DNA of 64,000 nt from Ceratodon purpureus (taxonomy: Eukaryota > Streptophyta > Bryopsida > Pseudoditrichales > Ditrichaceae): contig CM026421.1 of NCBI GenBank assembly GCA_014871385.1, positions 10,925,128 to 10,989,127 on the forward strand. The letters are read 5' to 3'. This document shows positions 1 through 49,102 of the stretch, one piece after another. The translations under genes were made by a program, and so were the position numbers. The stretch's first letter is position 1, and each line of letters opens with the position of its first letter. Under the pieces are notes generated by a model that had not been told where the DNA came from, did not search any database, and saw only the letters and a program-made list of their open reading frames with translations.

Positions 1-18
1 CCGAATTCTCCTTCAACC

Positions 19-3000
19 TCACAACATGCTACAGTCGCTACTTTCACTCTCAGAACTAGATGACTCCGTATCTCCTTCTACCGCCTCGTCATCGACGAAT
101 TGAAGGGCCCTGGGATCAAAAGTAGTTGGCCGACTAGGAACATATGTAAGGGCTCCAGATTGAAACGCCTGTGCTAAGCCCTCTGCGTAGTCCGGAAGTA
201 TGAAAGGCTGAATCGGGCTGGAATGAAGACGCCACGATGGAGTGGACACTGCTCTTGGCCCACGTGGCGGTGTTGCGGAAACTACTCTGCAATAGAGAAC
301 CGACTGTGGTTAGACAGAGTCCGTAGAGCTAGAAAGAGCAGTAATGATTGGATAATATAAACAAAGAATAGAAGACTTACACCACTTGTCAGGTCTTGCT
401 CTCTTTGGAGGCGCTTCGCCTGCTGCTGCCGGCCTTGGATGTTTAGGAGGACCCATGGCGGATGGTTTGAGAAGGGCGTTGAATATGGCTTCGTCCTCCT
501 CAAAAGCGAGAATGTGGCGACCAATAGCCTGGGCAGCCTTGATGGAGGCTCCTGAAACTCGGAGAGATACAAAGAAATGAGAAACTGTGGTAAAAACGAG
601 AAGAATAATTCAGAAAAGATATGCATGAATAGTTACCTGTCCCAGCATTCCAATCAACAACTATGTCGCCGGGCTTGGACAGCTCCTCAATGATGCCCTG
701 CATCATCTCGATGGATTTCTCCCTTGGGCCTCTCCACGGCACCTCCTCATTCATGAGCTGCGAATCCACATCGGTCAAGTTGAAAATGGCATCACTCTCG
801 GTAATGTTGAGGAGCCCATGTATTAGGTCTTCCTTCTTCGTCTGGAAGGAGAAAGTACTGCCACTACGAACGTAGACGCGAATCCAGAATCGCATAGTCT
901 GCAGTCAAGCAAAAGTAGTGAGTAAAATGAAGCGGAAGGGTTATCAGTAAGCGAAGAGAAGGGCATGTTCAGGAAAAGTACCAAGTTCTCGGGGTTCGTA
1001 GGAGAAGTCAGGCCGAGTACATTGACACCCCACCAGTCCTTGAACAGCACGTATCGACCAGCAGCAGCTTCTACCTCGATATCCTTAGCCAGCTTCTGAT
1101 CAGTGTTGTAGATGAGGCAGATGGCACCATCTTTCTGCAGGAATTCATCTGCAAAATGGAAGATGTCGTACAAATAATCCTTGTAGCGAGAGTTCCAAGG
1201 CGGAATACTCGTGGGGGGAACGGAAACGGAAGGGACGGGAAGATTCTCAGGGATGTCGGCAATGATCAAGTCGACTCCCAGATGGTCCTCTTGTTTGCAC
1301 CGGTCCGGAACTTCGTTTTCGCGGCCTGCTCCAAACTGGAGGAAACAAGAAAGGAGAGTTAGTAACTACAAAGCGAGTAGAGGTGACTGAATCCATGAAA
1401 TGTCAAAATATAAGAACATACCTTGCGAATGAAGTCTTGAATCTTGATCCAATCCGGGTCGCCACCTTTTCTCTCCTGTCTCCTATTTCGCCGCAACAGG
1501 GAATCCATAGATGAGTTGAAGACGGAAACATGTGTGGAAATCGAAGCTCCAGCGGAAGAAGTTGTTTGAGGATATAGTTTGGCCTTCCTCTGCTGAAGGA
1601 GACCTCTGGTGATCTCCGAAGCACTGATCGATGAAGGAGCCGGCGAAGAAGCTGGAGAAGGGTTGGTAACGATCATACCCGGAGAGGGCTCTGGTGCCTT
1701 CTCAGCTGGCGCGGAAGAGTCTGCACCAGTTTGCTGTGATGCCTCAGACTGAGAACGCAGAGATTTCAGTCGCCTTCCTCTCCCTCTCTTTGGTGGTGGA
1801 GCAGAAGACTGATCCTGTTCTCCTTCACGACCTTCTGCATCATCCACGGAGTCCTCCGCCACAACCTCACCTCCATCGTGTAGAGTCTTGACGTCCGCCT
1901 CTGAGTCAATCGTGAAACCACGAGAGCAATCAAGATACCAGCATCCCTCAAGCAAGTGAGGAGCTTTGTACCTTTTCAACTGTTGGGGAGAATAGATACA
2001 CTGGTCCGAGGTTTTCGACGTCCAAGAGAGGAAGTAGCTTGGGAACTGCTGAACCTTGATTACCCCCTTCAGAACAAGCTCTCGCTTGAAGTACCTATGT
2101 AAACCAATATGTAGAAGGTTAGTATCAAAGAGATAAAGAGACCTCGTTCTGGAATTTGAATCTGATTAAGAGGAATGTATCGTACCGGTAAGTAACCCGC
2201 TTGACAACTTGGGCGGTTCCAGGAAATTTAGAAAAAATGGACTTCTTGTCGAAGGGCTTATCTGCTGATTTTCCAATGAACGTAGGGAAGGCCTTGTCCC
2301 ACAAGAGAATACGTGAACTCTCCACATAATCGCCCGGCTGTTGGACATCAGGAAATGCCATCCAATTTATATCGAGGTTCTCCGTCTTGAATATGTCCTC
2401 GACTTCGTGGATGACGGCTTCCTCCAACTGTAATACAAAATTGATATAATTAGCAACGAAGAAGGAATACGGTAAAAAAATAAAGGAACAAGGAATTGGA
2501 ATGGATTTCTTATAAAAATTACCCCAGCCCAGAATGAAGCTTTGTTCAACCATGGGTCGAAGTCGGTGTCTTTGAATTCAGATGGCAGAAATCTGTAAGA
2601 CGTTCGAGCACTCGGGGATGAGTTCCACCACTTCAACCAACGAGCCTTGTATTTGGGCTCAACGGCCGCAGGAACAATCTTCTGAAGCTTATCCACTGAC
2701 ATCTCAGGCTTATTGTTGAGACTGAAATGGCGATTAATCTGCAAGAATAACCGAAGTTTGAGAAAGATAAATACAGAAATTATTGAAGTCATGCGAAACA
2801 GCGAATTGAACAATGATCAGTGAGTCACCTCATTGAGGAAGTCGTCACCATTCTTGGGATTTGCAATAGCCAAGTACTTGGTGAAGTCCTTCTTCTTGAT
2901 GGCTTCGACCATTCTCTCTGATGCCTCATTCATAACATCCCAAACTGCACTTGCAGACTGCTCATCCTTAGGTGTCTTCATGCGGTAGGCATTGGCTGCT

Positions 3001-6000
3001 TCATCGGAGGCCGCTGCGAGTTCCCGCTGTAGAAAGAGAATTCAGACTTAGGAAATTCCATGAGTATTGAATAATAAGAAGCAAATAGAGAGAGGAAGTA
3101 GGACTTACTCGGTACAAAAATGCGATGAAAACTTTAGTTGTCAAGGGAAACCAGGAGGGATTAGGTGGCTTGTTCTTCAAACAGACGTCATACTCTTGAG
3201 GACTGAGGAGGTCTTTGAATTCCTCCAGCTTCATCATTCCGAAAGAGCGGATTCGAAATAGTTTTGCAGGGAGATTACTCTTGACGTGGTCATTCTCAGT
3301 CGACCTGAAAATAAACCAAAAAAACTTATGATGAATAAAAGAGATGAGATAAAGTAACAAATGAAAAACAGGAGAAAAGAAACAAGTACTTACCAGTTGA
3401 TGTCGTGCATTGCGTGAAGAAGATTGCCAACGTGGCCACGGGGGTCGAGTACTATGCAGTGCACAGAGATGTGCCAAGACGGGTCGTCTGCATGATGCTT
3501 GTTGATATGACGAAGCCATGCTGAGAGGCGATGGTTACCTTCCCAGACAAAGAACATCTTCCCCGAGAATTGAGAGTAGTCCTCGTCACTTTGAAGCTCA
3601 AATTCGAAGACATCATTCGCGTCCCTCCATAATGGGCTCCATCTAGCCATGACCTCATCCGTAACATCTCGCGTCTGCTCTTCGTTGTTGTACATGGAGA
3701 TGTACATGACGCGGTCGCCATCTCTATACCCCTTGACGAACTCCCGCTCCAAATGCTGCACACCCACTTCGCCCACTGGTCTGACCTTTGCCATTGGGAT
3801 CATCCGACACAGGGGCACCAACATTCGGGACTTCTGCGATGGCTTGATCCTGAGCTTGTTGATGACGGCGTTGGAGTCCACCTTGTATAAGGTCTGATGT
3901 TCTAATTCCCCTTCTGTAGCAGTCTTCAAGTTTATCGGACAAGATGGTTTCACCAAAACATCTTGTGTTTGCGTAACCTGCGAGGGGGTGCGCAAATTAG
4001 GAAAACAAGCACAATCGAAGAAAGTCATGCAATGTAGACAAGTATGTAAAAGAAAGTAACAATATATCTTCATACTGTCATCTCTCTTTTAACAACTCAA
4101 TCATCATCTGTGATTGATAGAACTATCTCCGTGAGGATCGACTATAGTACTCCTTAGACTGTCTACAGTTCCAGTGACGGCGCCTCCTCCAAAATCGCCT
4201 GGTCTGTTGGACTGGGCACGGTAGAATAGCCGGCAGAGCAAAGACGACATGGGCTGGCCTCCTGACTCGAATCGGCGAGGAAGGAGAGGGTGGAGACATC
4301 GGCGGGGAGCCCTGTGGAGGAGAAGTGGGCATATAGCCCGGGGAGGTAGGCTCATACACCGGGGATGTAGGCATGTACACTGGAGAGGTAGGCATGTACA
4401 CTGGAGAGGTAGGCATGTACTGTGGAGAGTGGACCTGGAGAGGTCCACTTTCCACACCTACAGGGTTGGCTACATCACAGGTACAGTGGTACTGATCAAA
4501 TGAATCCGAAAGATCGGAAACATTGATGACAGAAATGGGGGAAGTAGCGGACATCTCAGGAGCATCGGATGATACCTACATTAGGAGAAATGAAGAGATG
4601 ATCAACTGCCCTAATTAAAAGAGTAGGAAACAAAGAAGGAAAGAGGGCGAATAGAACTGAACATCATAAACATAAAAAAGGAATATAAATTGTAGATTGA
4701 ATGAAATACCTCAGTTTCTGCTGGCGTAGGGTCTTGACGTTCGCTCCCCATTTGATCCCCATCAAAGTCCTTAATTGTAAACAATGTTGTAAGTAACAAA
4801 AAGAACAGGAACTTTTAAGATACAAACCAGAACCTCGAGAAGGCTCCCTAGAAAACCTTTAAAACTCATAAAGACTTATAAGATTTTTTTTAAGACTTCA
4901 TAAATTAAAACCCTTTCAATCAACACAAAAAATCAAAGAGGAAAAAAATGGAACAACTATCAGAAATCCCATATTGTCCCCCAACCTTAACATTGAAATA
5001 CGAATTCCATCATCAACCAATAACGTATACTTATCAAATCTTTAATATTTAATTCGTTATTAATTAACAAATAACTCAAATAACAAAAAAAAAATTAAAA
5101 AAATTACAAAGAACCGAAATGGAGCAGCACCCTCCCGGCCTACTGTCGTTGACGACAGTAGGTGGGCGGGTTTTTTATTTTCTCAAAATTTAAAAAAAAA
5201 CATTGAAATACGAATTCCATCATCAACCAATAACGTATACTTATCAAATCTTTAATATTTAATTCGTTATTAATTAACAAATAACTCAAATAACAAAAAA
5301 AAAATTAAAAAAATCACAAAGAACCGAAATGGAGCAGCACCCTCCCGGCCTACTGTCGTTGACGACAGTAGGTGGGCGGGTTTTTTATTTTCTCAAAATT
5401 AAAAAAAAAAACATTGAAAAAACGAATTCCATCATCAACCAATAACGTATACTTATCAAATCTTTAATATTTAATTCGTTATTAATTAACAAATAACTCA
5501 AATAACAAAAAAAAAATTAAAAAAATCACAAAGAACCGAAATGGAGCAGCACCCTCCCGGCCTACTGTCGTTGACGACAGTAGGTGGGCGGGTTTTTTAT
5601 TTTCTCAAAATTAAAAAAAAAAACATTGAAAAACGAATTCCATCATCAACCAATAACGTATACTTATCAAATCTTTAATATTTAATTCGTTATTAATTAA
5701 CAAATAACTCAAATAACAAAAAAAAAATTAAAAAAATTACAAAGAACCGAAATGGAGCAGCACCCTCCCGGCCTACTGTCGTTGACGACAGTAGGTGGGC
5801 GGGTTTTTTATTTTCTCAAAATTTAAAAAAAAAACATTGAAATACGAATTCCATCATCAACCAATAACGTATACTTATCAAATCTTTAATATTTAATTCG
5901 TTATTAATTAACAAATAACTCAAATAACAAAAAAAAAATTAAAAAAATCACAAAGAACCGAAATGGAGCAGCACCCTCCCGGCCTACTGTCGTTGACGAC

Positions 6001-8800
6001 AGTAGGTGGGCGGGTTTTTTATTTTCTCAAAATTAAAAAAAAAAACATTGAAAAACGAATTCCATCATCAACCAATAACGTATACTTATCAAATCTTTAA
6101 TATTTAATTCGTTATTAATTAACAAATAACTCAAATAACAAAAAAAAAATTAAAAAAATCACAAAGAACCGAAATGGAGCAGCACCCTCCCGGCCTACTG
6201 TCGTTGACGACAGTAGGTGGGCGGGTTTTTTATTTTCTCAAAATTAAAAAAAAAAACATTGAAAAACGAATTCCATCATCAACCAATAACGTATACTTAT
6301 CAAATCTTTAATATTTAATTCGTTATTAATTAACAAATAACTCAAATAACAAAAAAAAAATTAAAAAAATCACAAAGAACCGAAATGGAGCAGCACCCTC
6401 CCGGCCTACTGTCGTTGATGATAGTAGGTGGGCGGGTTTTTTATTTTCTCAAAATTAAAAAAAAAAACATTGAAAAACGAATTCCATCATCAACCAATAA
6501 CGTATACTTATCAAATCTTTAATATTTAATTCGTTATTAATTAACAAATAACTCAAATAACAAAAAAAAAATTAAAAAAATCACAAAGAACCGAAATGGA
6601 GCAGCACCCTCCCGGCCTACTGTCGTTGACGACAGTAGGTGGGCGGGTTTTTTATTTTCTCAAAATTAAAAAAAAAAACATTGAAAAACGAATTCCATCA
6701 TCAACCAATAACGTATACTTATCAAATCTTTAATATTTAATTCGTTATTAATTAACAAATAACTCAAATAACAAAAAAAAAATTAAAAAAATTACAAAGA
6801 ACCGAAATGGAGCAGCACCCTCCCGGCCTACTGTCGTTGACGACAGTAGGTGGGCGGGTTTTTTATTTTCTCAAAATTAAAAAAAAAAACATTGAAAAAC
6901 GAATTCCATCATCAACAAATAACGTATACTTATCAAATCTTTAATATTTAATTCGTTATTAATTAACAAATAACTCAAATAACAAAAAAAAAATTAAAAA
7001 AAATACAAAGAACCGAAATGGAGCAGCACCCTCCCGGCCTACTGTCGTTGATGATAGTAGGTGGGCGGGTTTTTTATTTTCTCAAAATTAAAAAAAAAAA
7101 CATTGAAAAACGAATTCCATCATCAACCAATAATGATACTTATCAAATCTTTAATATTTAATTCGTTATTAATTAACAAATAACTCAAATAACACCAAAA
7201 ATCCCCACGGCCCAAAGTGCTGGCCCTGAACAAATCCGCAAGTGCTGAGCTCGGAACTGATGAGCCCCTTCCTCGGCAATGACAATGCCTTCGAAGGGGG
7301 GGGGTTTTAATTTGAATAATAAAAAATAAAAACACTTCGAAACTGAAGGCAGCAGCAACTAGGCAGGGAAGCATCACACACCGCACTCACAAAACAAAAT
7401 AAAAAAGTGCTGGACAAGGAATCAAAACCCAAGCTTCATCAAAGGCATAAGCCTCCTCGGCCTCCAACTGCTCATGCCCTTGTGCTAATCCTCCCATTCG
7501 GCAATCCAAGAACCGCAACCCAAGAGGCCGCAACCCAACAACTCTCGCATTCCAACCCAACACAAGAAACTCCCAATACCCAACAACAATCTGAGAACCC
7601 GAATCCGCATTAGATCCATTCTCACAGAACCCAACCACAATAATGCTCGAATCCAAGTACATTGTACGAAATCATAATCACAAACCTTGCCGTACGATCT
7701 CATGATGGTTCTCAAGTCCGTACGATAGAATCAACCCAAGATTCAAAAATCCCACCAACCCAAGATTCAAAAATCCCACCATTCAAACAACCGGAAGAGA
7801 CTCTAGGAACAGGTGGTGAGCGTTACCTGGTCTTCCTCTTCCTCGTTGTCGACAGCATTCTCCTCTTCCTCTTCCTCGCTGCCCTCGCTCCCGTCGCTCC
7901 CGCCTGGAGCTCCTACCCCGAGCTCAGGCTGCGGCTCGGGCTCAGCAGCCATTTCAGCCGCGCCTCCTCCACCAGCAAGCTCTCCCTCTTCCACTCGTTC
8001 CTCGACCTCATCTGCCACTCGTGCCGCCATCGCTAAGCCACCCTCACCCGCGTGGAGAATCCCTTCCCTCGCCCGCCTCGCAACAAGTCGAAGCTGCTCA
8101 GTTTCGCAACTCTCTCCTCCTTGTGAGAGTAATCTCGATCCACCCACCTCCCTTATCCATTTCTTACCCTATAAAAAATTAGACCAAAAATTAAACAGGC
8201 GAGTTAGTGGCATTCATAAGTCTTAAACCATTTCATTCATAAAACTCAATTAAACTATTTAGAGAATAACGTTTAAAAAGTATAGTAATTATTACATAGA
8301 ATTCACAACAGCGTGGTTGTAGACGGTTTGCAATTACTTACCAAATCGGAGTTTAAATACAGATCTGATTGAGAATCAGGCTCCCCTGTCGAAAATTCAT
8401 TGAAAGTAAACGAAGGTTGTGGTGACTCTACTCTTTGACTACAATTAAAGACTAATTCCTCCGTCATGGCCTCACGTGCAACTCCACTTACGAGTACCTC
8501 CAGTTCGTGCTCTTGACTCTCAACAACGGTGTTCTCTAATATCTCTTCCTTCTCCTCCACTATAGACTCGAGAATGAGTTTGCGAATGCTACAAAACTTC
8601 AATGCTACAGGCAGGCCGACTCCTCTCCTTTTTACAGGAGCACTCAAATTGTCACCTTTAAAAACTACCTTCTTACGTAATGCTCTCCTCTTTCTAGCTC
8701 TCCTATCCGTGAAATCTGTACCACCTGGTTTTCTTCTAGGTTTAGGAGTGACATAAGTGGAGGGAGATGGCCCTCCACTCTGCTTCATGTGTCTAACCAC
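19..8800 (-). CDS. T1 ParB-like / N4-N6 DNA-methyltransferase-like fusion protein, 14 exons
   Basis: Exons in order: 8342-8800, 7827-8168, 4710-4769, about 4250-4575 (donor unresolved), 3394-3977, 3109-3304, 2829-3026, 2523-2738, 2186-2427, 1422-2094, 982-1335, 637-898, 381-551, 19-284. All have GT/AG borders and, apart from the unresolved donor, phases agree. The protein is about 1,450 residues: a basic N-terminus, an acidic Glu-rich stretch, five YxPTSPx heptads, then a ParB/sulfiredoxin-like core (EFVKGYRDG ... FVWEGNHRLSAW, about 3,515-3,740). A long middle region follows, then a beta-class methyltransferase order: motif IV position DIPENLPVP (about 1,240-1,260), then PGDIVVDWNAGTG (637-675) and IGRHILAFE. 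DPPY is replaced by DIPE, so catalysis is doubtful, while the SAM loop AGTG is kept. ParB-methylase fusions are known in bacteria and phages. The ATG at 8800 is the first of a divergent pair with the transposase. Confidence 0.75.
4316..4420 (-). repeat. Five RNA polymerase II CTD-like heptads encoded in T1 methyltransferase gene
   Basis: In the minus-strand frame of exon 4 the codons give YMPTSPV three times, then YEPTSPG and YMPTSPP. This matches the Rpb1 C-terminal consensus YSPTSPS with the first Ser replaced by Met or Glu. More SP/PSP motifs follow (PPMSPPSPSSP). The frame is fixed by joining to the previous exon (ETE-VSSDAPEM). The T2 copy has an acidic segment instead, so the heptads are specific to this copy. 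The role is unknown; mimicry of CTD phosphorylation sites is only a suggestion. Confidence 0.7.
4987..7193. repeat. ~211-bp satellite, about 10 copies plus a partial one, each with a strong hairpin
   Basis: A unit starting CATTGAAAWACGAATTCC repeats about every 211 bp with very high identity. Each full unit has the perfect palindrome CCTACTGTCGT-TG-ACGACAGTAGG flanked by C-rich and G-rich arms and followed on the plus strand by a T-run. Palindromes begin near 5139, 5350, 5561, 5772, 5983, 6194, 6405, 6616, 6828 and 7038. Two of them (6405 and 7038) carry GATGATAG in the right arm, C-to-T changes. The array lies in the long third intron-exon gap (7826 to 4770) of the methyltransferase-like gene. 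It ends in a partial unit at about 7193. Near-identity of the copies suggests recent amplification. Confidence 0.9.
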
Positions 8801-9378
8801 AGGAAGGACTCTCTTACAAAAAGACTCTCATGAGAGTTACCTCCCAGCTTAAATACCTATGACGTACCTCTATTTTAACTAAACCTTAAGCTCAAATACT
8901 TTCTAAACCACTGACACATTATATACCCACTTTATATTAAGAGTACCAATGATAATTCTATATTAAAGTATAGTTTAAAATTTCAGCCCTAAAATAAAAG
9001 GTAGAAATCCGAGCTCTTCACTGCTTGCCGCTTTTAAAAATCATTGTTTTAAATGTAGAATTTTAATGACGGCTCATTCTAATCCTATAATAAATCATAA
9101 CAAATAGAATGTGCTCCTGAATTCAAATTATCAATGTGGAGTTCTAAAAATCTTACCTGATATTCTTAGACCTGCAAAAAGTGGCATTATAATTAGTTAG
9201 CGCCGTCTCTAATAAATCTTACATTCGTTACCTAACAGAATGAATCATTCTCCAACTGTTCACAAGGACATTCCAACTTGAATAAAATGATCAACAACGA
9301 TGCATCATTCCTCTCACTTTGTTCTCGCGTTACGCCATTGCTAATACACTCTCTCTTCTACTCTCTCCGTCTGTAAAC
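8801..9378. promoter_or_regulatory. Divergent promoter region between methyltransferase-like and transposase genes of T1
   Basis: These 578 bases separate the ATG of the minus-strand gene (8800) from the probable ATG of the plus-strand transposase (9379). No ORF of note is present. The sequence is AT-rich and could drive both genes. I see no unambiguous TATA pair. In T2 the same interval also holds a small ORF. Confidence 0.4.
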
Positions 9379-12300
9379 ATGGGAATGGTGTGCCTGTACG
9401 CCCAAGGCATGGGCATCCCTCTTAGGTTTCGCGTAGATGACGATGGTCTTGCTACAGTATCCTCTCTTCGCTTGAGTCTCAGATTCCATTTCCGTGAGGA
9501 TTCTATCAGTATAGAGGAGGAGATGTTCGATGACGTTACTGCCGAGGTTACCCACACCCTCGGGCAACCTTCAGTGAGAGATGAGAACAACATGTTGCAG
9601 TGGAGACTCCTCCCTGGATCCTATAGAGTCTACGGTCTTACTGATTTTCTTATGGCTGCATCCACTGAGATCCTCACCCCCCGTCGCTCTTCTACTTGCA
9701 CAATTCAGACTCCCTTACCTCGTGATGTCAAAGTCAAAGTCGAGCCTGGTACCGAGACTTCAGATGTAGAGAAACCTCCTCCGACGGTCATATCTCTCTC
9801 TTCTGATGACGAAGTCAGTCCCGTCAAGTTGGTGCCTAAGGTCCACGCAGATGCTCCTCCTTCCAATGTCTCTCCTCCATTGTCCCAGGTCACAGTTAGC
9901 ATTGTTCCGCTCCTTAAAGAGATTGCTAAGACGCGTGGGTCCAAAAACATTTTGAAGAAGATAGACTATTCCACTATTAGACACGAGAGAGTAGAGTACT
10001 TGCCTGCGAAGTTTGATGGTCCGGTTCTTTTTGAGTTGCCCCCAGCTGCTGCAGGTTCCTCTAAACTCGCCGCCAAGTCTATGCAGGGAATGGACAAACG
10101 ATACGACGGACACTTGTGGACCAAGACCATCACAACAAACATCAAAAACGACTTCGGACTCTCTTTTCGAAGTTCCACCTGCGTCGGATGGCTGCGTTGC
10201 ACGAACGTGGAGTCTGACTTCCTCAAGCGTGTTCCCAAGATCTTCGAGGTTAACGAGACTGAGTTCGAAGGCTGTACCCTGCAAGCTTTTCTCATGGATC
10301 AGCCTCCTCCATCTGACTCCACGCTAGTGTGCAAGGTATGTAAAGAACCTCCATCATGTGTAGCTACATGCGAGGCTAAGATTTATTACGTTGTGGGCAA
10401 ACCGAATCAGACTAGAGCGTGTATTCACATAGGAACACATGATCATCCAGTGAAAGTAGGAGACTACAGAGACTCTAAAGCAGAGATTAGTAGCTTAATA
10501 GAAGAGCAGGTAGAGATGAACAACAAAGCAACAAAGAGCGCCGTTGTCCTGGAGGCGAGCAAACTCCTCATCGGGAGCTACCTTCTACAACCCGAGGATG
10601 CACCTCCGAGGAAGCTGACGATGGAGGAGCTGGTTCCTGTTTTGGATCGTTGCAAAGACATGGCGTCACCAAACATCCGCAACAAAGTCGCCACCTTCAA
10701 GAAATTCAATAGGTACGGAATCATGGACGGTATCACCAAGCTCCGTGGTAACAGTCTCTGGGCGTATGTCCAGGAGAATAGGTTTCCTGGTCAGGGATCT
10801 ATGCGTGACAAAGTCTTCGTCTTCAAGATGTCGGAGGTCGGGCCGGGAAGTGGTGTCGACTTGGTCAGCCGAATGCAAGCTGGTGGCGACTTGGAGAACG
10901 CATGGATCATGTTCGACCATGTAAAACGCGTCAAAGACTGGTCGACCATGGCGTGCCATGTGTACGACGCCACCTACTGCCGCGTGATGACAATCGCCAC
11001 TTGCGACATGCAGTCCGAGGACACGGACGCCCAGCTCGTCTTCTGGAAAAACCTGAACCTGGTCATGGAGATCAATGGCGTTGCAGCGCCGAACTTCAAG
11101 GGGTTCATGGCGGATAACGCACAGGCGAATTGGAATGCAGTGCGAATCCTTTACGGCAATGGCAACAAAGAAGACCCAATGGAGGACCGGGAGAGGTCGT
11201 GCTTGTTCCACTGGACTCAGAACATGGTGGCGTATACGCAGAAGCACTTCCCCGAAGAACTCTGGGAACAGCACAAGAAGATGTGCACTCAATACAAGAA
11301 TGCGACCAGCATGGCAGAGGCGGAAACTCTGTACCACGCCTTGCGAGCATGGCGGGCATCCACCGGGGTCGTTGGCGAGAGCGGGCTCATCAAACTCGAT
11401 CAGTGGCTGTCATTCTGGCACCACCGCTTCCGCCAGTGGGGGGGATTCATGACCGAGGTATTATCTCTGCTCTCTGTTTTCATGTTTTTGATACTGGTTT
11501 CCTAGCCCTAACCTACAAAACTGTAATCGCTGAATCTAACGGCACCTACTGCCAAATCTGCAGAAATTCACGAAAGAAGAACTCACAGAAATGCCCACCT
11601 GTAACCTCGCCGAAACAGTTCACAACAAATGGCTCCAAGCTTCAGGAAACAATGGGAGCGACCTCTACGTTGCTACCGTGGACGATTTCGTTCGGGCTTT
11701 TCTACAGGTTGTCAACTACTACCAGTTCCTCAAAGGTGACGTCGGCGGAACAGGACCATCCAAAAAGGAACTCAGGCTTCAGATGGCGGAACGCAACGCG
11801 AAGAAATGGGGAAATCCTACACTGCTCGACAAGCCCATGCTCGATATGCCAGGCGCGGATGAGTTCTGCACCCGTCAGCCTATCATGCCAGGAGCGGAAG
11901 TCTTCGGTTCACAGAAGCGAAAAGCCGACGTCCTTATCGGAGCTGACGAAGAGTCTCATCGCCCGGATAAGACCAACTTCTCACGCCCAAGAGGCCCAAG
12001 ACGTGCCGTCAGGGCTCGCCCTATGCAGATGCCCGTCATTGTGGAAGACGACTCCGAACACGACACCGACGTCCAATGTACCCAACCTCCTGCCCAGGAA
12101 GTTGATTCCCCTTTACCTTCACCTGTGAACAAGGGCGGCATTCGCCATGTCAACGCGGTTGAAGAAACCAAGGTGGACGTGAAGGAGTGGCACATTTCGA
12201 GACTTCACAAACTTTCTGCGAAGTGCTGCTGGGCCCAAAGAGCTGAAACGAAGAAGAAGTGCACTGAGAGAATCGTCAGGGGGCCCCATTGCACAGCTGC

Positions 12301-13057
12301 ACCGACCTACACTGGGCTCTGGACTAACTATCGCAGGAACCTAGTGGAGAAGACTGAGTTCTTCTTCTGCTCCGACGATATCGAGCGTTGCGTGAAAGGC
12401 TCTAAGCGCAAGTGGGTAGCACACTACTCAAAGGACCAGGAATTCCCCTCCATTCCCGAGGTGTGGCCAGTGAAACTAGGTACTAACCTAAAACTTACTG
12501 AGATTCTTGCCCACGAAGCAGCGGGCTTTCAACTTCCGCAGAAGAAACCTGTCTCCCCAAGACGCCTCTTCTCCTCTGCCCCGCCCCCTGCAAATCTCAG
12601 CTCGCTGCCAGTCCCTGCAGACGCTGACCGCTACCCAGGCAAGAGAGACGGCAAGATGGTGAAGCGCACTGCCACTCGTCCCAATCAAGCGCAGCGACTT
12701 TCCATGGGCTCCTCTGAGTCCCTTAAAGCGCGCCTCCGTTCCGTCACCATGATACCAGAGCCGGGCCACGGTTGCATCATTGGGCTGGATTCGGGCGTCG
12801 CTCCACACATCACACGGTACCAGATTACCATCAGTTCTTACCCTGGTTGCACTTGCCCAGCATTCAAGAAGACGATGACCACGTTCCGTGGCAAGACTCT
12901 GTTCACGTATTGTAAGCACCTATACTACATACTCTTGAAGGTCTGCAACCGTGATCCCGAAGCGGAGCTTTTCATCCATGCGCCTACCTTTAGCTTCAAC
13001 GAGGTCAAGCTTCTCCTAGAGAGTGGAATCTTGCGTCACCCCTTGGCGAAGAAGTAG
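9379..13057 (+). CDS. T1 transposase, MULE-type DDE with SWIM finger, intact
   Basis: Two exons, 9379-11457 and 11564-13057, joined GAG|AAA in phase 0, give about 1,190 residues without stops. The start ATG at 9379 is chosen because it aligns with the T2 start; an in-frame ATG at 9319 exists. Order: N-terminal domain; a sumoylation-type site VKVEPG and an acidic SIM-like ISLSSDDE; a zinc cluster CKVC...C...C...HIGTHDHP (about residues 317-360) of the WRKY/GCM type; a DDE core with YDATY (Asp 530), FMADNAQANW (Asp 579) and NLAETVHNKW (Glu 710); and a SWIM finger CTCP...YCKH (about 1122-1146). This is the architecture of Mutator-like transposases. It would cut and join the GTGAGCG-bearing ends of the T family. 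The copy in T2 is about 50-60% similar by eye and is broken. Confidence 0.85.
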
Positions 13058-13311
13058 GTAGCCCTCCTACTTTAGAACTGCCATTTCCACAATGGCCATT
13101 TGTCACGTAGTGAATGATTTTAGTAATATCCCATGTACTAAGTCAGCAATATAGAAGCTGTATTGACTTTTTCATTATATTAAGGGCTTTGTCGTTCACA
13201 TTAATTGCATTCTATTTCAATACAATCTATCTTGAACAAGTGCACTATATACTTCGTATCCCCTGACATGTATCTTTTATTACAGCAAACATATACTTGT
13301 TATTAGATGTC

Positions 13312-13764
13312 TCAATCTTCGAACCTAACACGTTTAGGGTTGCCCACTACACTATCAGCAGGACTGCCAGCCGCTGACTGTACTACAGGAGAAACTACAT
13401 TCGCATTCACTTTCGTTCCCACACTTGAAAAATGTCCTTGGTATGATCGTTTCAGCAATGGCCCACCTCCCCGCCTCCGATTAACTGATTCCCTGGAATA
13501 GGTTCCCCTTGGGATCTTTCCAACCTTCGAGTATGCATGTGGTTGCAAAGGCACATCTGCGTCCTTCTCTAGCACTCTGATATCATCCGAATTTTCTGAA
13601 CGTGGAGGGTCAGCTCTTACATCCGGTTGTACCGCAACATCTGATGTCGACGGACGGCCTTGGCTGTTGGCCATCACCTCTTCTTCGTCCTCCACCTCAA
13701 CATATGGTTGAAATGGACAAACATCGTCAGCGAGTGAAACAACAATATCTCTGACGTCTTCCAT
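13312..13764 (-). CDS. T1 accessory ORF with HAYS-PGTY motif
   Basis: A 150-residue ORF convergent with the transposase. It has an acidic N-terminal half and a basic C-terminal half. I do not recognise the family. Its core HAYSKVGKIPRGTYS matches HAYSNVGVIKPGTYT in the T2 ORF at 43,731-44,192, so the motif is conserved although the ORF has a different place and orientation in T2. Arg/Lys-rich segments after the motif suggest a nucleic-acid-binding or nuclear protein. No introns are evident. It could be a regulator carried by the transposon, or a peptide processed from one. Confidence 0.55.
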   Translation of the reverse strand: MEDVRDIVVSLADDVCPFQPYVEVEDEEEVMANSQGRPSTSDVAVQPDVRADPPRSENSDDIRVLEKDADVPLQPHAYSKVGKIPRGTYSRESVNRRRGGGPLLKRSYQGHFSSVGTKVNANVVSPVVQSAAGSPADSVVGNPKRVRFED

Positions 13765-14534
13765 AGCTGCTGTCCCGTACTACGGAAAAGAGCTTCACAT
13801 AACACCAATACAAAAGAGGAAGAGACATTCCTTACTCTTATCTTAAATATCCCTAGAGAAGATGCTTGGCGCCCTTGAAAATCGGCTATTCATTCATTGA
13901 GAAGTTGTCATCCTCCTAAACCGAATGGAAAAAGATGAAGGTTTAGCAGAGGTCATTTAGCATTTAAATTTTTTTTTTTAAATTAAAGAATGAAAAAAAA
14001 AAAAAAAAAAAAAAAAAAAAACATTTATATAAATTGAAATTAAAAAGATTAAAGAAAAGAATAGCAATATTTAAAATGAAGGTTGAAAATAATATGAAGA
14101 AGATTAACAAATTGAATGTGAAAATAAAATGATTGTGAAAATAAAATGAAGGAGAGAATCAAATGAAAGGAGGCTTTTGACCCCTCTAACAAGATAGATA
14201 GAATAAAGAAAATTTTATAAAAAATACAAGACAAATTTCAAAAAAATTAAAAGAAAATAAAAAAAAGGAAAAAGGCGTGTAGACTATGGTGGATGAATTC
14301 TAGCAATGTTAAGAAAATGTTACGAAATTAAATGTTACTTGATCCCTGTTCAGAGGTTCAATACCAATACATTTTAAGTAGTAATTTGCATATAAATTTA
14401 AGGAGATAAGGGGAATTACTGTATGCCTGAACTAGTAAGAAGGAGCTGGAGCATAGTAATTGGTGCACGTTAAAAAATTAATCACCAAGAAAAGAGAAAA
14501 TGAACTACAAATTCAATGAAAATACTGTAATTAG
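13765..14534. other. Non-coding right arm of T1
   Basis: AT-rich sequence with a run of about 30 adenines near 13,990-14,020. I see no gene; ORFs here are short and low-complexity. Confidence 0.6.
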
Positions 14535-14744
14535 TCCACGGTTATAGGGTCAATTAAATTACTAAAATTAGTAAATTTCCAAAAATAAATTAAGAATATT
14601 CGAATCTTCTAATTTTATGATTTATTTTTAGTAAAAAAAGTGCTATTTTTAGGTTCTGTCCCCCATTCTGTGCTCTCCGCTCTCCAAATCTGCGCTCACC
14701 GCTCTCCGCTCTGCGCTCTGCGCTCACGTACAAGCTACCCTCCC
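14535..14744. repeat. Right terminal inverted repeat of T1
   Basis: Inner motif TCCACGGTTATAGG (14,535-14,548), then an AT-rich spacer, then a degenerate array of GCTCACC/GCTCTCC/GCTCTGC units (about 14,680-14,728) and CGTACAAGCTACCCTCCC at the edge. Read from the outside this is AGCTTGTACGTGAGCG..., matching the T2 left end AGCTATTTAGTGAGCG and the T2 right end AGCTATTTTGCGAGCG. Confidence 0.7.
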
Positions 14745-17700
14745 AGCGAGTATGTAACTTACCCGGAAAATTCTTGTATCGGCTGTCATAGACTAGAACC
14801 AATCCCCCTTCTTCGATTTCTTTATCCATCGTGATTCGCTTGTCATACACTTCCTTCCTTTTGGCTTGGACCTCCTTTGTCCTTTCCAATGCCTCCATCC
14901 GGTCTTCCTCCATCCGGTCGATGACCTGTAGACGGTGGTCGAGGGTATCCGTTTTATCTCCGTGGTTGGCTGCGAGCACCCTTAAAGTCTCTACTTCCGT
15001 CTCGATGGACTGAAGTACCTTCTGTCCGTATACCAGATAATACGGAGTCCGTCCGGTCGTACTCTTGTGTGCCGTGTTATACGCATAGACGGCTGAAGTC
15101 AGTTTCCGGTCCCAGTCCGTCTTATGTGAGGTAACTACCTTGGTCAGAATCTTACAAATTATTCCGTTGGCACGTTCCGTCAATCCGTTTGCCTTGGGAT
15201 TGTACGGGGTGGTCTTCCGGTGTTTGACTTCGTACTGGTTGGTCAGACCGGCCACCACTTCGTTCAGGAAATGTGTTCCCCGGTCGCTCACTATCTCCAA
15301 CGGATGGCCAAACCGCATCATTATCCTTTCAAATATGAACCGGGCGGATGTCTCGGCGTCATTTTTCCGGGTGGCCCTGGCTTCTACCCACTTTGTGGCG
15401 TAGTCCGTCGCCAAAATGATGTACCGGTGCCTCTGAGTGCCTAAAGGTTGAATAGGTCCAATAAAATCCACTCCCCATTTTTCAAACGGTGCTAGGGGGA
15501 CAATGGGAGTTAGCGGCCAGTGATGCCGGACGGCAGGAGCGCCTATCCGTTGGCAGGGGTCGCATTCTTTTATGAATTGATGAACATCACGGTGAAGGTG
15601 TGGCCACCAGTATCCGGCCTCGCGGATCTTCTGTACGGTGATGACGGATGCATAGTGTCCTCCGGCCGGTCCATCATGTAGAGCCCGGATGACCTTTCGG
15701 CAATAGATGGGTTCTAGGCAGCGTCGGAGTTTTTCATCCGCCCCTAGTTTGAAAAGCAATTCTCCGACTAGAAAATACGGTGCTGAAACACACTTTTCTC
15801 CTCTCTACTCAGTCCTTCCGGATACCTCTGAGTCTGGAGATAGTTCTTAATCCGCTGAAGGTCCTGGTCCTCCCTTTCGTCCTCCTGAATATGGTAGACG
15901 GAAGATGTCCCTCCTACGACCGGAAGGTCGCGGGGGTCCGGTATATCCTGTATACTGGTACCAACCGGGTATTCTTCCGGAAATTCATCCGGAAACTCTG
16001 AAGATATCTCCTCCTTGCTCTCTTTTCCTCGTTGTCGTGACAAGTAATCTGCATTGAGGTTAGATTTCCCGGATTTGACAATAACTTCGTAGTTGAACTC
16101 TTGAAGAAGTAATATCCACCTGGCCAACCTTCCGGACAGGTCCGGTTTGTTGACTAAATACTTCAGCGAGTCATGATCCGTATGGAAGATGACTTTGTAC
16201 CCCAATAGGTAATGACGAAACTTTTTGCACGCATAAATGACGGCTAGGGCCTCCCTTTCGGTTGTCGTGTAATTCTTCTCGGCCGGATTCATCTGCCGAC
16301 TGGCATAATAGATGGGTCTTTCCCAGCCCTCGTCATCCAATTGCCATAGAATAGCTCCCACACACCAACGGGAGGCATCCAAGGTGACATGGAAAGGTTT
16401 TGACCAATCCGGCGGTGCTAGTATAGGGGCTGTGACCAACCGTCTCTTCAATTCTTCAAAGGCTTGTTGACGGATTTCCGTCTAGAGGTACTCCTCTTCC
16501 TTCTTGAGCAGCTCCGTCAGTGGCATTGCCAACCGGGCATAGTTCTCAATGAACCTCCGGTAGTATCCCACACACCCCAGAAATCCTCTGAGTTCCCGGA
16601 GGTTGGTGGGAGCAAGAAGAGCCAACATGACTATCACTTTTGCTACGTCTACTGCTATTCCCTTCCGGCTGACTATGTGTCCGAGCAATAGTCCGGCTAA
16701 CATACCAAAAAAACACTTACCCGGATGGAGCTTGAGCTTAGTCTCTCGGCATCGCTGGAACGTCTTCCGGAGATAGTCCAGGTGTTCCACCCATCGGCTA
16801 AACACCGCAAAGTCGTCAATGAAAACTTCCAAGAAATGCTTTAAGAAGTCCTGAAATATGTCCATCATCAACCGTTGAAAAGTTCCGGGAGCATTGCACA
16901 ACCCGAAAGGCATCCGGTTGAAAGCGTAGGTGCCCCAATCGGTGGTAAAAGTAGTTTTCAGTTGGTCCTCTTTCCGGATGGACACCTGATTGTATCCGGA
17001 AAACCCATCTAGAAAACTGAAGCATTCCTGACCGGCCACGTGATCGAGCACCATGTCGATGAAGGGTAAAGGAAAATGATCCTTTTTCGTGGCCGCATTC
17101 AGCTTCCGGAAGTCCTGACATACCCGGATTTTGACCTTACCATCCGGGCCTGATTTTTTCGGTACCACCACAATAGGTGACACCCACTCGGAGTTATTCA
17201 CTAGATAGATGAAACCGGCTTCCAGCAGTTTATCTAGTTCCTCTTTCACCATCATGGAGTATTTTGGGTTGAGCCGGTACTGCCTTTGGCGAACCGGAAC
17301 CGCTCCCTCCATTAGGTCGATGTGGTGTTCGCCCAGTTCCGGCGGTATACCCACCAGATCCGATGGGAGCCAGGCAAAGACGTCATTGTATTCCGTGAGC
17401 AGTTCCAAATACTGCGCCCTCTCCCGGTCCGTCAATCCCTTTCCCAAATAGAAAGTCCTACCGGCTTCCGTCTTCACTGCTTCGTAATCCTCCGGTGCTA
17501 CAACATTCTTAACCGGTTCGGTAGCATCTGTTCCTACGGACCCCGGTAGGGCTAACCATGGTAGGTCAGTGGTCCTTGACCCGGATGTCCCTGTTTTGAT
17601 TACCCCGGCTGCGAACTGTTCTCTAATCCATTTGGAGGTCAATGGAACGCTTGATTCCCCTAAGGCCCTGTCATCGTCCTTCCTGACTTCCGGTGGTCGG

Positions 17701-20356: not shown

Positions 20357-20422
20357 GCGTTTTCTACAACCTGACTTGGATTAGTGACAACCGTAGAAAT
20401 CCGGAGGAAGAAAATCATATAG

Positions 20423-31135: not shown

Positions 31136-31245
31136 CGGGGGAGCTATTTAGTGAGCGGTAAGCGGTGAGCTGTGAGCGGTGAGCGGTAACTTTTCTGTAA
31201 TTTTGGAAATTTGCTGTCTCGTGAAGCATATCCTATGACCGCGGA
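31136..31245. repeat. Left terminal inverted repeat of T2
   Basis: From the edge: CGGGGGAGCTATTTA, then GTGAGCGGTAAGCGGTGAGC-type units, GTAACTTTTCTG, AAATTT and CCTATGACCGCGGA (31,232-31,245). It mirrors 48,902-49,095. Confidence 0.85.
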
Positions 31246-32371
31246 TTTGGTAGTTATTTTGAATATTATTAAAACATTTAGGGCCTAGGGTATATAAATG
31301 AAGAATTTTGGCATGCCTATATCCGTGGTTCAGGCACTTGAGAGAAATAACAGAATGCAAGGATGTAAATATTATAATATATAATAGATAGTGCAAATTA
31401 TTTATTCTTCCAAACTTTATTTCTTAAATTTTTGGAATTCCATTTGAATCCCATTCTATCTTCTTGTTTATTAAACTTCTTCTTTTATGTTTTCATTATT
31501 TTTTTTAGTTAACTAATTTGCTATCTTTTTTCATTTTTTTTTTCTTCCATTTTTCGTCCATCTTTCCTCCATTCATTTTATTTAATCATTTATTTATTTT
31601 TGCTTCTATTCTTCTTCCATTCCATTTTAATATCTATTTATTCTTCCATTCTTAATCACTTTCATATTATTATTTTTATTTTTATTTTTCATTCTCATTC
31701 GATTCTATCTTCTTATTTACTTAAACTTCCATTCTTCTTTTCTTTATTCATTTATTTCATTTCTTCTTCCATCCTTCTTCCATTTCATCTAAATTCAACC
31801 ATTCTTATTCCATTCAATCTTAAAATTTTTAATATTCTTCATTTGTTCTTCCATTCTATCTTTTTTCTTAAGCTTGAGAACCGGTTTAGCGTCTAAAGCC
31901 TTAACTTATGCAATAATAGGGTTTTGGTACAGAACTATAATGGGAATGAAGTGTATGTAAAATGACACATGGCATTCATGTAGTAGATATAGTAATAGAG
32001 TTACTAGAAGAATAATATTTGACAAAGCAAGTTTTCCTAAACCGACATCCTTAAAGATAGAAAGTCTTGTAGCAACAATAGGTGCATCACACATTATGTC
32101 TCAGAAGTTAAATATACATGGACGTTGAAAAGCAAAGACGGTTAGGAATACTTATCATAACAAAGGCCGTGCTCGGGAACTGTAAGGTACCAGATATACA
32201 GCATGCGCCAAATAGATTACTAAAGATTCAACCAACTGTAATCCTTGAAAATCATATAAATCTTGAAAATCTGCCCTACAGTGAAAGACTTCAACTAATG
32301 TAGGAATTTTTCCAAAACATCATCAACAGGTGTATGGTCTCTAGCTAACTGCTCATGTCCTATGGACTAAG
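31246..32371. other. Non-coding left arm of T2
   Basis: AT-rich. Between about 31,400 and 31,870 the plus strand is a pyrimidine-rich stretch with loose repeats of TTCTTCCATTC. No gene is supported; ORFs here encode low-complexity Phe/Ser/Ile strings. The last few hundred bases should be the 3' UTR of the minus-strand gene. Confidence 0.6.
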
Positions 32372-35300
32372 TCAATCTGATGAAGAGAGTGTCTCAGAAT
32401 TAGCGCAATCTGAAATGAAGGAAGATCCAGGTTCTGAAAAACTATCTAGATCAATACTCTCGTCATCACAAGAGGCTACTGCATCCGACTCAACAGCCTC
32501 ATCATCTACATATTCTAACTGCCTAGGGATAGTTCTAGTAGAATGATTAGTACGGTAATGCCCTTGAGCTAATTGAATAGCCATAGCATCAGCATATGAG
32601 GGAAGGTGCCACGATTTTGGAGGGCTCGAATGGAAATGAGGGTTACAAAAAAAAGGACGGTGCACAGGATACTTCAGATTATCATATCTGCAATGGCCAA
32701 AGATATCATGTATATAAAATAACAAAATCAGGAAATCCTTCAAACAAAATAATAGAATGTCCACTCTATGAAACATACTCACAACATAAAACGAGACTTC
32801 TTCATAATCTTCTCAACTGGAGCATCTTCAACACTGATATCATCTAGACTGATGCCAGTTTCTTCAACAAGTGCAACAGTCTCTTTTGCCTGCTGGATCA
32901 AAGGAGCTATGAGGGCGTTGTAGATTTCAGTATCTGGCTCCAAAGCAGCTACATGGCGATTTACATTGCGACAAGCAATGATAGTAGACCCTGCGACAAA
33001 CACATTCCAAATACTTGTCAGAATTAATGACATTAAATTGAGTGAAATGAAATGAAGAAACTAACTTGACTGGAGAATTTCATACCTGTCGAAGCAGTAC
33101 AATCAAGAACGATATCACCAGGCTGAGTTGAAGCCAAAACAAGCGTCTGCATAAACGAAACTGATTTCTCTCGAGGTCCACGCCATGCCACGTCCCCATT
33201 CATGTGTTGTTCCTCTCTTGTGACAATATTTGGCAAAATATCATCAACGGCAACATTCACTCCTTGCCGATCCAGAGCGGGAATGGTCTGGAATTTGAAG
33301 TTGGAAGTTGGTGCCTTGCGTATAGCAAGGCATATCCCAAACCGTTGGGTCTGTTACACACAACATGATGTAGAATATTATTACAACTGCAGGACATACA
33401 CGGCATATATACAACATTTAAATCAATATCAAGAAAATAAAAGTACTTACAGTCAAAAGTGGATTAGTTCCAGAAGTAAGATGGAGGCGGTTCATCCCCC
33501 ACCACTCCTTTTTGATTTCGTAACTCCAAGTCTTCAGATATCCCAGCATGTTGGATCTTGTCGTCACTCGAAAAGGATGAAATAGGATCATAGCACCATC
33601 ATCTGAGAGGTGTTGCTCAGCAAATTCAAATACTGGATTCAGCCACATCTTGGAGTCCTGGTTCCAAGGAGGAATGGAATCACCTGGGTTGGAGATCCCT
33701 GGAACTGGAAGTCCCTCGGGAATGTCCACAAGCATCAAGTCAACACAAGGATGGGGCTTGGAAGAACCCTTGTACAGGCGGCTTCTACCAATACAATGCT
33801 GTAAAAAAAGACAAATAATTAGTATATCAAGGTTGTAAATATTTCTACAGATAAATAACTATAATCTGAAACAATTTTTAGGAATACAAAATCATAATTA
33901 CATCAGTAGTTCCATGGAGAATATTTCCTTATCAAATGTTGCTGCAATAAAATCTCCATGCAAAGAATTTCAAATTAAAAGCTAAGATCTAGTAAACTAT
34001 TCATTGATCTAGTAAGAGGCTAAGAGCACATGATCAAAAATTCAGAAGATTGATATGAATTCAGAACAATGCATGCGAATTCAGAGCAGCCAAAATGAAC
34101 TAATTAATTTCAGCATATACTAAATCTCCTCTGCAAATGGTGAACAAGTGATATGAAGCATTCACATAAGTAGAAGCTGAAAGAGAATCATATTACCTTC
34201 CTTAAAAAACCCACAAGTTCGTAGTAGGCCGGTGTGGGGACATCTGATTTACCCCCAAGAATCAAATCCATTGAAGAGTTCAAAATAAACTCTCCAATAG
34301 AATTGTTGGTTTCCTCTGTGCAATCTAATACCTGCACTTGAGTGAGCTGGAGCTCAAAAGTAGTATCTCTCTTTGTCCCCTTTGTTGAAACACTACCTGA
34401 ATTCACAGTAGTACTTGGGGCATTGGGGCTTTTACCTTGCACTTCCCCTGGAGTACTAACCTTCCTTTTTCCTTTTCTAGATGCCTTCTCAGACGCCTTA
34501 TGCTCCTTCTCCAACTCTTTCTGCTATGCCTTGACCTCCGCTTCTTTCACTTTAAGAGCCTTTTTCCTATCCTCTTCAATTCTCCTCTTGATTGCCTTTG
34601 CCCTCTCTCTCTCATCCTCTATCCCCGCAAGATCCACCATCTCAACTCCTGACTCACCTATAGCTTCCCTGGACTTCCTGAGCTCAATCTCAAAGGAAGG
34701 AGTGAAACTAGGAACGCAGTCGAGGTACCAGGCACCTGCAGTAAGATGCGAAGTTGTCCATGTCCGCTGTTGCAAAGCTGAAAACATGCATGCTGCATTC
34801 GATCGATCGACCCAAGTAGAAAGAAAAATAGGGAGATTTTCCTTGGCAATTGCCTGCTTCGCTAATAGCTCAAACTTGAAATACCTACATCATTTAACCA
34901 AAGATATTAGCAACTATCCATTCTCCAAAACTGAAGAGAAATCAGCAGGAACTCCTAAGAACTCAGTGACAGTTCAATCAAATTTACGGAGTAACTCAAA
35001 GACAGACCATGACACAGCAATTCACATCAGAGAGGTACAATGACACAACAATTCACATCAAAGTGCTAGCGTGTATACTCTAGAGAAGAAACCAAAGTCC
35101 ATTATCCCAAGTTGTAGTTGCCCACAAAACAATGCACGCTGCTCAAAAGAAACCAAACAAAACAAACACCGCTTACAAGTCAAGTCACGCCAATTGCTTA
35201 ACCTGCGAGACAGACAGTAGCATCTAACGTTGTCGGGACAGCATATTACATTCAAACCCAAGTACTATACCAATAAAACGTGCCGTGAACAATTTCTATA

Positions 35301-43371: not shown

Positions 43372-43730
43372 CTCTATGCTCTATAAGCCATTAGGACCAC
43401 TACTTATGTGCTTCAAACAATCACAAGGGACAAATCTATGACCTCTTCATTTGTTCATAATTTTAGATGTTGATAAATGCGGATTTTATTACTAGACTGC
43501 GTGTTATAAATGGCTCTCACATCGTGTGCACTAAATAAAATTAAGAGAATAATTATGCTCTTGGACCTCTTAAAAGCCTAAAGTCGGCGCTTACAGATAC
43601 TCCTTTATCATGTAGGGTAACTACTTTTTAAGGGACACTGATATTTGAAGCTGTTAGTTGATAGTATAAGTATAGAGCCCATTCGAGTCCGTTGTAAGTC
43701 TATTTGGTCAGTACCTATTACGTCTCGAGT

Positions 43731-44192
43731 ATGACAGGTGTTAAAGGCACTAGTACAGTGGACGTAGTTCTGCCAGTTGAGCCGATTTCGATTGATCAGT
43801 TTGAAGGCCCTTTTGAGCACGTTCTTGTAAGTGCTCTCAATAAGAGCATGGGTCATGGTTCAATAGATGACGGTTGTATTGAAGACTTCAACCTTGTACA
43901 ACCTGAATCTACGATCGATATTAAGGTAGTAGAAAATTCCAAGCCTGTGCGGCATGCCTACTCTAATGTTGGAGTCATCAAGCCGGGGACGTACACGAGC
44001 GCTTTACTCAGAGGCCATCCTAAACCTAGAGGAGTCAGACTCAAGACGCCTGGCTGTGTATTATTGTGTACTACTGCTCCATTGCCTCGAAAACGTCAGA
44101 GGCCACCAGACGATGAACCTATTAAAGCACATGATGAGGACAATCACAAAGAAGATGGAGAAGAAGCCGCCAAGCACTGTCGCCTTTACTAA
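43731..44192 (+). CDS. T2 accessory ORF with HAYS-PGTY motif
   Basis: A 153-residue ORF (an in-frame ATG at 43,704 would add 9 residues) between the divergent methyltransferase-like and transposase genes. The core HAYSNVGVIKPGTYT is shared with the T1 ORF at 13,312-13,764. The flanks are acidic before and basic after it (PLPRKRQRPPDDE, a likely nuclear signal). The family is not recognised. In T1 the ORF lies on the other side of the transposase and in opposite orientation, so this module has moved. Confidence 0.5.
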   Translation: MTGVKGTSTVDVVLPVEPISIDQFEGPFEHVLVSALNKSMGHGSIDDGCIEDFNLVQPESTIDIKVVENSKPVRHAYSNVGVIKPGTYTSALLRGHPKPRGVRLKTPGCVLLCTTAPLPRKRQRPPDDEPIKAHDEDNHKEDGEEAAKHCRLY

Positions 44193-44852
44193 ATAACATT
44201 CACTACTGTAGCCTCTAATTAGAGATGATTGACAGATGTTTGCTAGAATAGACTTAATTCTAGTTAGTGTCATATTCGCCGATGACAGCTAAATCGGATC
44301 CTCTCTTCTTCTACATTAAATATGAGATTCATACAAATCTATCCCGCCGTCATTTTTTTCCTTTTGAATAGAAATCTTCTATTCTGGTATTTAAAAATAG
44401 TGTCGTACTAGACAATCTTGATTATAGGTACGCGCAGTTACTTTGTTTCTATCATCTGTCCCCTCACCTTCTTTATGAAATTATGAATTATCTCGTTATA
44501 TATACTTATTTTGTTATCTTTTAAATACCATCTATCATGAACCATGACGCCGTCAACCTCATACCAAAATAATGTTATACAATATAACGACTCAATGTCA
44601 TTCTTATTCAAATGTTATTTTCAAAATTTCATGCAATCCTTTGTTAATTTCGGCTAAATTCAAAGAAATCTCACAAATATCTCCAAGACACGTGTTGCAT
44701 GTGATCAGTTAATTACTTTTGCTTTCGTGAAATTAACTTTCATCTCTTTACCTATTAAGTTATGAGTGTATATATATTCTTCAAAATCTCAAAGAAGTCC
44801 CTTTCGTGATTCAAACTCTGTCCTGCACAAGTGCCTAGTGGGTTTCTCAGCA
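44193..44852. other. Upstream region of T2 transposase
   Basis: AT-rich, no gene supported. TATATATATTC-like sequence near 44,768-44,778 lies about 80 bases before the ATG and could be a TATA element. Confidence 0.35.
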
Positions 44853-49095: not shown

Positions 49096-49102
49096 ATCAC
49101 TA

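Follow-up and report, generated by a model that had tools for sequence, protein, structure and literature searches.

A large DNA transposon family of the moss Ceratodon purpureus carries a divergent accessory gene with a methyltransferase fold and a putative ParB-like domain

Why would a transposon of a land plant carry a gene of phage or bacterial type, and what could its product do for the element? The question is raised by a 64,000-nucleotide stretch of the Ceratodon purpureus genome (assembly GCA_014871385.1, contig CM026421.1, positions 10,925,128 to 10,989,127; here called the window), in which a first-pass annotation had read an intron-rich gene as a fusion of a ParB-like domain to an N4/N6-methyltransferase-like domain. 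Our analysis leads us to lean towards a large DNA transposon family that encodes a transposase and, divergently, a selected accessory ParB-like/methyltransferase protein that would bind the DNA of its own element. We infer this role of the protein from the layout of the element, its terminal inverted repeats (TIRs), target site duplications (TSDs) and copy number, purifying selection among seven copies, methyltransferase homology and an array of hairpins.

The gene in the first of two elements in the window, element A, was rebuilt from the sequence. Exon reconstruction on the minus strand bore out the 13 introns that had been proposed, with one exon border unsure:

19..8788, minus strand: ParB-like/methyltransferase gene of element A, 14 exons and 13 introns
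8788-8342, 8168-7827 and 4769-4710, minus strand: exons 1 to 3
4575 to about 4170, minus strand: exon 4, read by eye, 3' border unsure
3977-3394, 3304-3109, 3026-2829 and 2738-2523, minus strand: exons 5 to 8
2427-2186, 2094-1422 and 1335-982, minus strand: exons 9 to 11
898-637, 551-381 and 284-19, minus strand: exons 12 to 14
3394..3977, minus strand: exon with the GNHR (ParB-like) core, fold unconfirmed
2186..3304, minus strand: four exons of a conserved middle region, fold unassigned
982..1335, minus strand: methyltransferase exon with motif IV, DIPE
637..898, minus strand: methyltransferase exon with motif I (DWNAGTG) at its end
381..551, minus strand: methyltransferase exon with the acidic residue of motif II

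The last ten exons, from the ParB-like exon onward, read as 1,053 codons and a final stop, and the first three exons encode 283 amino acids; the whole protein is estimated at 1,450 to 1,500 amino acids. The fourth exon contains heptads like those of the RNA polymerase II C-terminal domain (YMPTSPV; 4123-4575, minus strand). YxPTSP words number 4 to 6 per A-type copy and 10 in copy c8, whose stretch also includes part of an older copy.

The claim that the gene is carried by a transposon held up, given TIRs, TSDs, an adjacent divergent transposase and a second, similar element (B) at 31136-49092:

1..14742, no strand: part of element A inside the window, with ends common to other copies and its own left TIR and TSD
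14678..14742, no strand: right TIR of A, imperfect and about 65 bp long (inner border approximate), with GAGCGGA-type heptamers
14743..14752, no strand: TSD of A, CCAGCGAGTA, the same as in the left flank (C1:10910573-10910582)
9379..13057, plus strand: transposase of A, two long exons separated by one short intron whose borders are provisional, with a CxC...CxH motif at the C terminus
13312..13779, minus strand: small conserved open reading frame of A, 155 amino acids, open in 6/6 copies compared
31136..49092, no strand: element B, with a 10-bp TSD at 31126-31135 and 49093-49102
32373..38678, minus strand: ParB-like/methyltransferase gene of B from the ParB-like exon to the stop, broken
44766..48488, plus strand: transposase region of B

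In full, element A begins at C1:10910583, to the left of the window, and ends at window position 14742; an LTR-type insertion of roughly 12.9 kb (known from its last 10 kb and first 300 bases) interrupts it and ends just before window position -28. Truncation of A on the left was rejected, the left end having been found beyond this insertion. The two TSD copies of B are identical at 9 of 10 bases, the best result of a scan near the TIRs. When A was compared with six further copies, imperfect TIRs of about 65 bp were found, and all six A-type copies with both ends have 10-bp TSDs, as read by eye; copy c6a is without a right end. Five copies with both ends measure 15.3 to 19.3 kb, and the size of the array described below accounts for much of the difference. 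Genome-wide, the left TIR pattern occurs 1,288 times at up to 3 mismatches (0 for the reversed control). Full elements (for example, L010) also have, in their leftmost 1.6 kb, which lies outside the window, a reading frame of 123 amino acids that is open and 97.6 to 100% conserved in 6/6 copies.

Mutator-like (MULE) transposons have TSDs of 8 to 11 bp and long TIRs, and the ends here, with a 10-bp TSD and a TIR of about 65 bp, are of that type. The transposase has MULE-like marks and a SWIM-like motif. PF10551 gave no match at E ≤ 1 to the transposase reading frames of A and B, and none of its 150 scored genome matches (of 384 candidates) lies at either element. The TSD does not fit a Sola1 assignment, being 4 bp in Sola1 transposons versus 10 bp here.

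Elements A and B share the divergent layout of gene and transposase (tblastn within the window) and are 41% identical in the methyltransferase region. From the ParB-like exon to the end of the gene, introns agree in position and phase in 8/9 cases and the ninth differs in phase, with one junction of B, that preceding its motif IV exon, placed partly by eye. Introns common to two such diverged copies would fit an old acquisition of the gene. The copy in B has a frameshift near 38190, in the ParB-like exon, and an in-frame TAG near 34525, in the linker.

The 362-Mb genome of C. purpureus holds many relatives of this gene. At least 40 places match 501 bases of the GNHR exon at 95 to 100% DNA identity (40 scored of 776 candidates), a recurrence beyond chance. 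With the ParB-like exon of A as the query, 137 of 150 scored places (1,903 candidates) were free of stops; with that of B, stops were present in 22 of 150 (1,565 candidates). The last ten exons are intact in five of seven A-type copies, the exceptions being c8 (one stop) and c6a (a one-base loss), and an eighth, older copy is broken, with 11 stops in the frame of A. Both transposase exons are stop-free in 3 of 6 copies compared. Pooled over the seven A-type copies, in pairs that are not independent and have few counts each, pN/pS was 0.17 for the ParB-like region, 0.27 for the middle, 0.23 for the linker, 0.32 for the methyltransferase domain, and 0.93 for the C-terminal tail; whole-frame values in six single pairs ranged from 0.29 to 0.95. 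Between A and the older copy, the corresponding values were 0.12, 0.26, 0.59, 0.48 and 0.57. The gene is under purifying selection among the seven copies compared.

The assignment of the C-terminal domain was tested by profile comparison. Once spliced, the methyltransferase domains of A and B scored 35.9 and 35.2 bits against PF01555 (cut-off, 26.7), whereas unspliced, a single exon matched below threshold; all nine aligned family members matched PF01555 at E ≤ 0.01. A profile of these nine sequences matched the solved structures of CcrM (6pbd; positions 1 to 210, E = 3.1e-10) and DpnA (positions 154 to 213, E = 9.6e-11). Against an alignment of phage ParB-methyltransferases (79 sequences from 80 loci; rows with more than 40% gaps dropped), hhalign gave the methyltransferase part a probability of 97.1% (E = 6e-11, 189 columns). 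Because the PF01555 cut-off was passed and both the structure profiles and hhalign agree, homology makes a beta-class amino-methyltransferase fold secure for this domain, as the first-pass annotation had proposed. The beta-class order was likewise borne out: the motif IV exon (1335-982) precedes the motif I exon (898-637), collinear with CcrM.

Motif IV itself is unusual. It reads DIPE in both A and B and departs from the canonical (D/N/S)PP(Y/F/W). Among 16 further loci of the window type, picked from 150 scored places out of 1,727 candidates with the motif IV exon of B as the query, D[ILV]PE occurs in 14, and DMLE and YLPE occur once each. Six other PF01555-positive loci, picked from 54 on the methyltransferase domain with the ParB-like exon not part of the criterion, have D[QT]P[FY] in five cases and DVPE in one; the five (L065-L067, L069 and L070) form a second methyltransferase branch within the same genome. 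Invariant in 9/9 aligned members are the Asp and Pro of motif IV, the TG of motif I, and the Glu of motif II. The aromatic residue of motif IV stacks on the flipped target base. Because it is absent, methylation by the D[ILV]PE branch is doubtful and should not be assumed, and because motif IV is noncanonical, we assign the domain the fold yet do not class it as an active N4/N6 enzyme. More likely, we think, the D[ILV]PE domain binds S-adenosylmethionine (SAM) and DNA but does not methylate bases in the normal way, or its chemistry is altered. The D[QT]P[FY] loci may methylate adenine; the nearest solved structures are DpnA and CcrM.

The N-terminal half of the proposed fusion fared less evenly. 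The ParB-like exon has a GNHR box, and the Arg of Box II (GxxR) is invariant in all nine sequences of the family alignment; among 20 other ParB exons, this Arg is lost in L045 and L046, and L048 stops short of the box. PF02195 (ParB_N) had no match at E ≤ 1 in the entire genome (the control matched in 11 of 14 genomes) and matched none of the nine family members. ParB was not confirmed by a Pfam search of the GNHR exon or by a profile search of the PDB with this exon, and hhalign against phage ParB gave a probability of 0.7 to 1%, equalled by 6 of 60 column shuffles. Two low-confidence AlphaFold models (pLDDT 48 and 58) returned nothing at E ≤ 0.001 in Foldseek, with no ParB among the matches listed. 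The weak predicted model runs helix, strand, helical insert, strand into the GNHR box, helix, strand, strand; the first ParB strand was not predicted in it. Partly because independent authors read the same domain pair in Ectocarpus (below), we consider the exon quite probably ParB-like. Of the fusion first proposed, then, PF01555 scored above its cut-off and ParB_N found no match; the ParB-like part keeps its GNHR box and weak, sub-threshold matches to the ParB-like families DUF1015 and DGQHR; PF02195, hhalign and the low-confidence folds did not confirm it.

If the protein binds its own element, a candidate site lies within the gene:

4989..7201, no strand: array of 10.5 tandem 211-bp units, within intron 2 of the gene of A, upstream of the ParB-like exon

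This array has 10 copies of a 24-bp hairpin, CCTACTGTCG-TTGA-CGACAGTAGG, 8 of them exact and 2 with two changes each. The 211-bp repeat is present in all seven A-type copies examined, in 4.6 to 50.1 units, and the hairpin is identical in the consensus units of all seven, which otherwise differ, that of c9 most. Allowing up to 5 changes, 130 hairpins were found in seven A-type stretches, 117 of them exact; the genome holds 1,706 exact copies and none of the reversed control. The matches listed cover C1 and the beginning of C2; of their 12 hairpin clusters, 11 have an A-type ParB exon no more than 2 kb away and one, at C1:28269636, does not. All 11 arrays that were listed adjoin a ParB-exon match. 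Conversely, an exact hairpin lies near 9 of the 13 A-type ParB exons listed on C1 and is absent near 4. Element B has no comparable array, and because of this and the four exons on C1, the array cannot be required by the whole family. In families L071, L072 and L073, tandem repeats lie no more than about 2.5 kb from the ParB exon, with other units and without the A-type hairpin. Within 8 kb upstream, a divergent transposase was found in L073 alone of these three; that of L071 has the same direction, and L072 has none. The divergent layout of gene and transposase therefore holds in A, B and L073. The hairpin may be a landing site of the ParB-like/methyltransferase protein.

The first-pass annotation had taken a ParB-methyltransferase fusion on a transposon to be new. 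This does not stand, since such genes are already published for algal transposons (PMC12477816, in the part available). That part describes Ectocarpus Sola1-1_Ec32 as a 21.5-kb transposon with ParB-like and N4/N6 methyltransferase domains in one protein of 1,104 amino acids. The moss element is similar in having both domains in one protein, whose gene, in a large DNA transposon, runs opposite to that of the transposase. Compared by description only, it differs from this Sola1 element in its 10-bp TSDs, SWIM-like transposase motif, estimated protein length of 1,450 to 1,500 amino acids, D[ILV]PE motif IV, and conserved hairpin array. The available part of PMC12477816 also refers to Iyer 2011 and Petroll 2025 for ParB-methyltransferase genes on transposons of green and red algae, by its account the same kind of accessory gene. 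The kind of gene is known from algae; new here are the transposon type, the host, the altered motif IV and the hairpin array. No paper naming such a transposon gene in mosses was found among the titles listed in searches of open PMC texts, and our results extend the algal reports to a land plant.

In a survey of ParB-fold fusions, PF01555 is among those more frequent in phages (PMC12704722, in the part available). Like phage ParB-N6_N4 methyltransferase fusions, the moss protein has the ParB-like domain before the methyltransferase, with homology over the 189 columns given above. Unlike phage fusion L079 (401 amino acids in one reading frame, with DPPY), it is several times longer, is interrupted by 13 introns and lacks a detectable ParB profile. 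A search of viral contigs with the ParB-like profile gave 66 pattern-matching stretches and no relative; with the methyltransferase profile, one phage contig matched. Dinoflagellate and Klebsormidium retrotransposons also carry their own DNMT (PMC5890265, in the part available) and thus resemble the moss element as transposons with a DNA methyltransferase of their own; their enzymes, unlike the moss gene, are of the C5-cytosine type and lie inside retrotransposons. With many copies, two branches and a candidate DNA site in one moss genome, it becomes possible to test why transposons carry bacterial-type methyltransferases: hundreds of related copies, in the D[QT]P[FY] and D[ILV]PE enzyme branches, permit statistics.

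Several other explanations bear on what the accessory protein is. That the gene is a passenger, spreading with the element and doing nothing for it, is very unlikely: broken copies exist (B, c8, c6a and the older copy with 11 stops), but the domains have pooled pN/pS values of 0.17 to 0.32 versus 0.93 in the tail, 137 of 150 scored ParB-like exons are open, and the gene is retained in elements merely 41% identical in the methyltransferase domain. The accessory protein could instead be an active N6-adenine (or N4-cytosine) DNA methyltransferase that, despite D[ILV]PE, would methylate the element as a self-mark. The invariant Asp and Pro of motif IV, TG of motif I and Glu of motif II in 9/9 members, the adenine methyltransferases as nearest structures, and D[QT]P[FY] in five of the six other PF01555 loci read are consistent with such activity; we nevertheless think it unlikely, as Glu replaces the motif IV aromatic residue in 18/18 window-type sequences (A, B and the 16 loci). 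The GNHR domain, for its part, could be a nucleotide-binding regulator like DUF1015 or DndB, of the same broad fold as ParB and not a ParB DNA clamp. DUF1015 was matched by four of nine members (best E = 0.041, over the GNHR box where shown) and TIGR04172 (DGQHR_dnd_1) by one of nine (E = 0.12), compared with none for ParB_N, and DndB is described as a ParB-like, ATP-dependent repressor in the available part of PMC12704722. However, every match fell below its curated cut-off, and unrelated families scored similarly (DUF7366, 0.058; UPF0227, 0.068; SatS, 0.06). These matches point weakly to the broad fold shared with ParB, and we hold the regulator possible but somewhat improbable.

The array could instead be an RNA device, or a transcription or terminator device, within the intron and not a protein-binding site, which we judge a plausible alternative a little short of even. 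Compared with 200 shuffles, the hairpin has a much more stable fold (z = -6.5 and -6.3 on the two strands), a conserved T-run follows it on the plus strand, and the TTGA loop is conserved as much as the arms. On the other hand, the outer stem is lost in the c9 consensus, the invariant inner stem leaves no covariation to test, and Rfam gave nothing at E ≤ 0.1 over 4700-8000. The preferred reading, of a transposon with a selected accessory protein that binds its DNA, has its own difficulties: no profile or fold test confirmed the ParB fold, motif IV is noncanonical, one of the three other families sampled has a divergent transposase within 8 kb, the conserved core, with its TTGA loop and T-run, is also compatible with an RNA hairpin, and single close pairs give pN/pS values from 0.29 to 0.95. 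Under this preferred reading, one gene encodes the transposase and the opposite gene an accessory protein of phage or bacterial type, with a GNHR domain, a long middle and a methyltransferase fold, which selection on the element would maintain. The protein would bind the DNA of its own element, with the hairpin array or its vicinity as the probable loading site, and would mark or cover the element, allowing escape from silencing or the timing of transposition. A more specific version, a selfish parS-like system, strikes us as distinctly unlikely; in it, the protein would load on the 24-bp hairpin (about 5 to 50 repeats in its own gene), spread, and protect or mark the element, the D[ILV]PE methyltransferase having been turned from methylation to DNA binding. 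If true, it would be, as far as we know, the first case of a ParB-site pair operating in a nuclear transposon of a eukaryote.

Other mobile sequences surround these elements. At C8:4614172-4640771, an A-type element is nested in an older member of the family, in the stretch that corresponds to the fourth exon of the gene. Two Ty3/gypsy-type retrotransposons were recognized by their reading frames at 14590-20380 (minus strand) and 23925-28331 (plus strand), and the right end of A lies inside the first. Element B sits between two plus-strand reading frames of apparently one gene, 29720-31168 and 49085-49654. The second is weakly similar to Ulp1 proteases (PF02902, below cut-off) and perhaps belongs to another mobile element; its assignment to B was rejected, since the TSD places it in the gene that B entered. 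A further pair of transposase-like reading frames lies at 54052-57157 (minus strand), with a CxC...CxH (SWIM-like) motif and no Pfam match.
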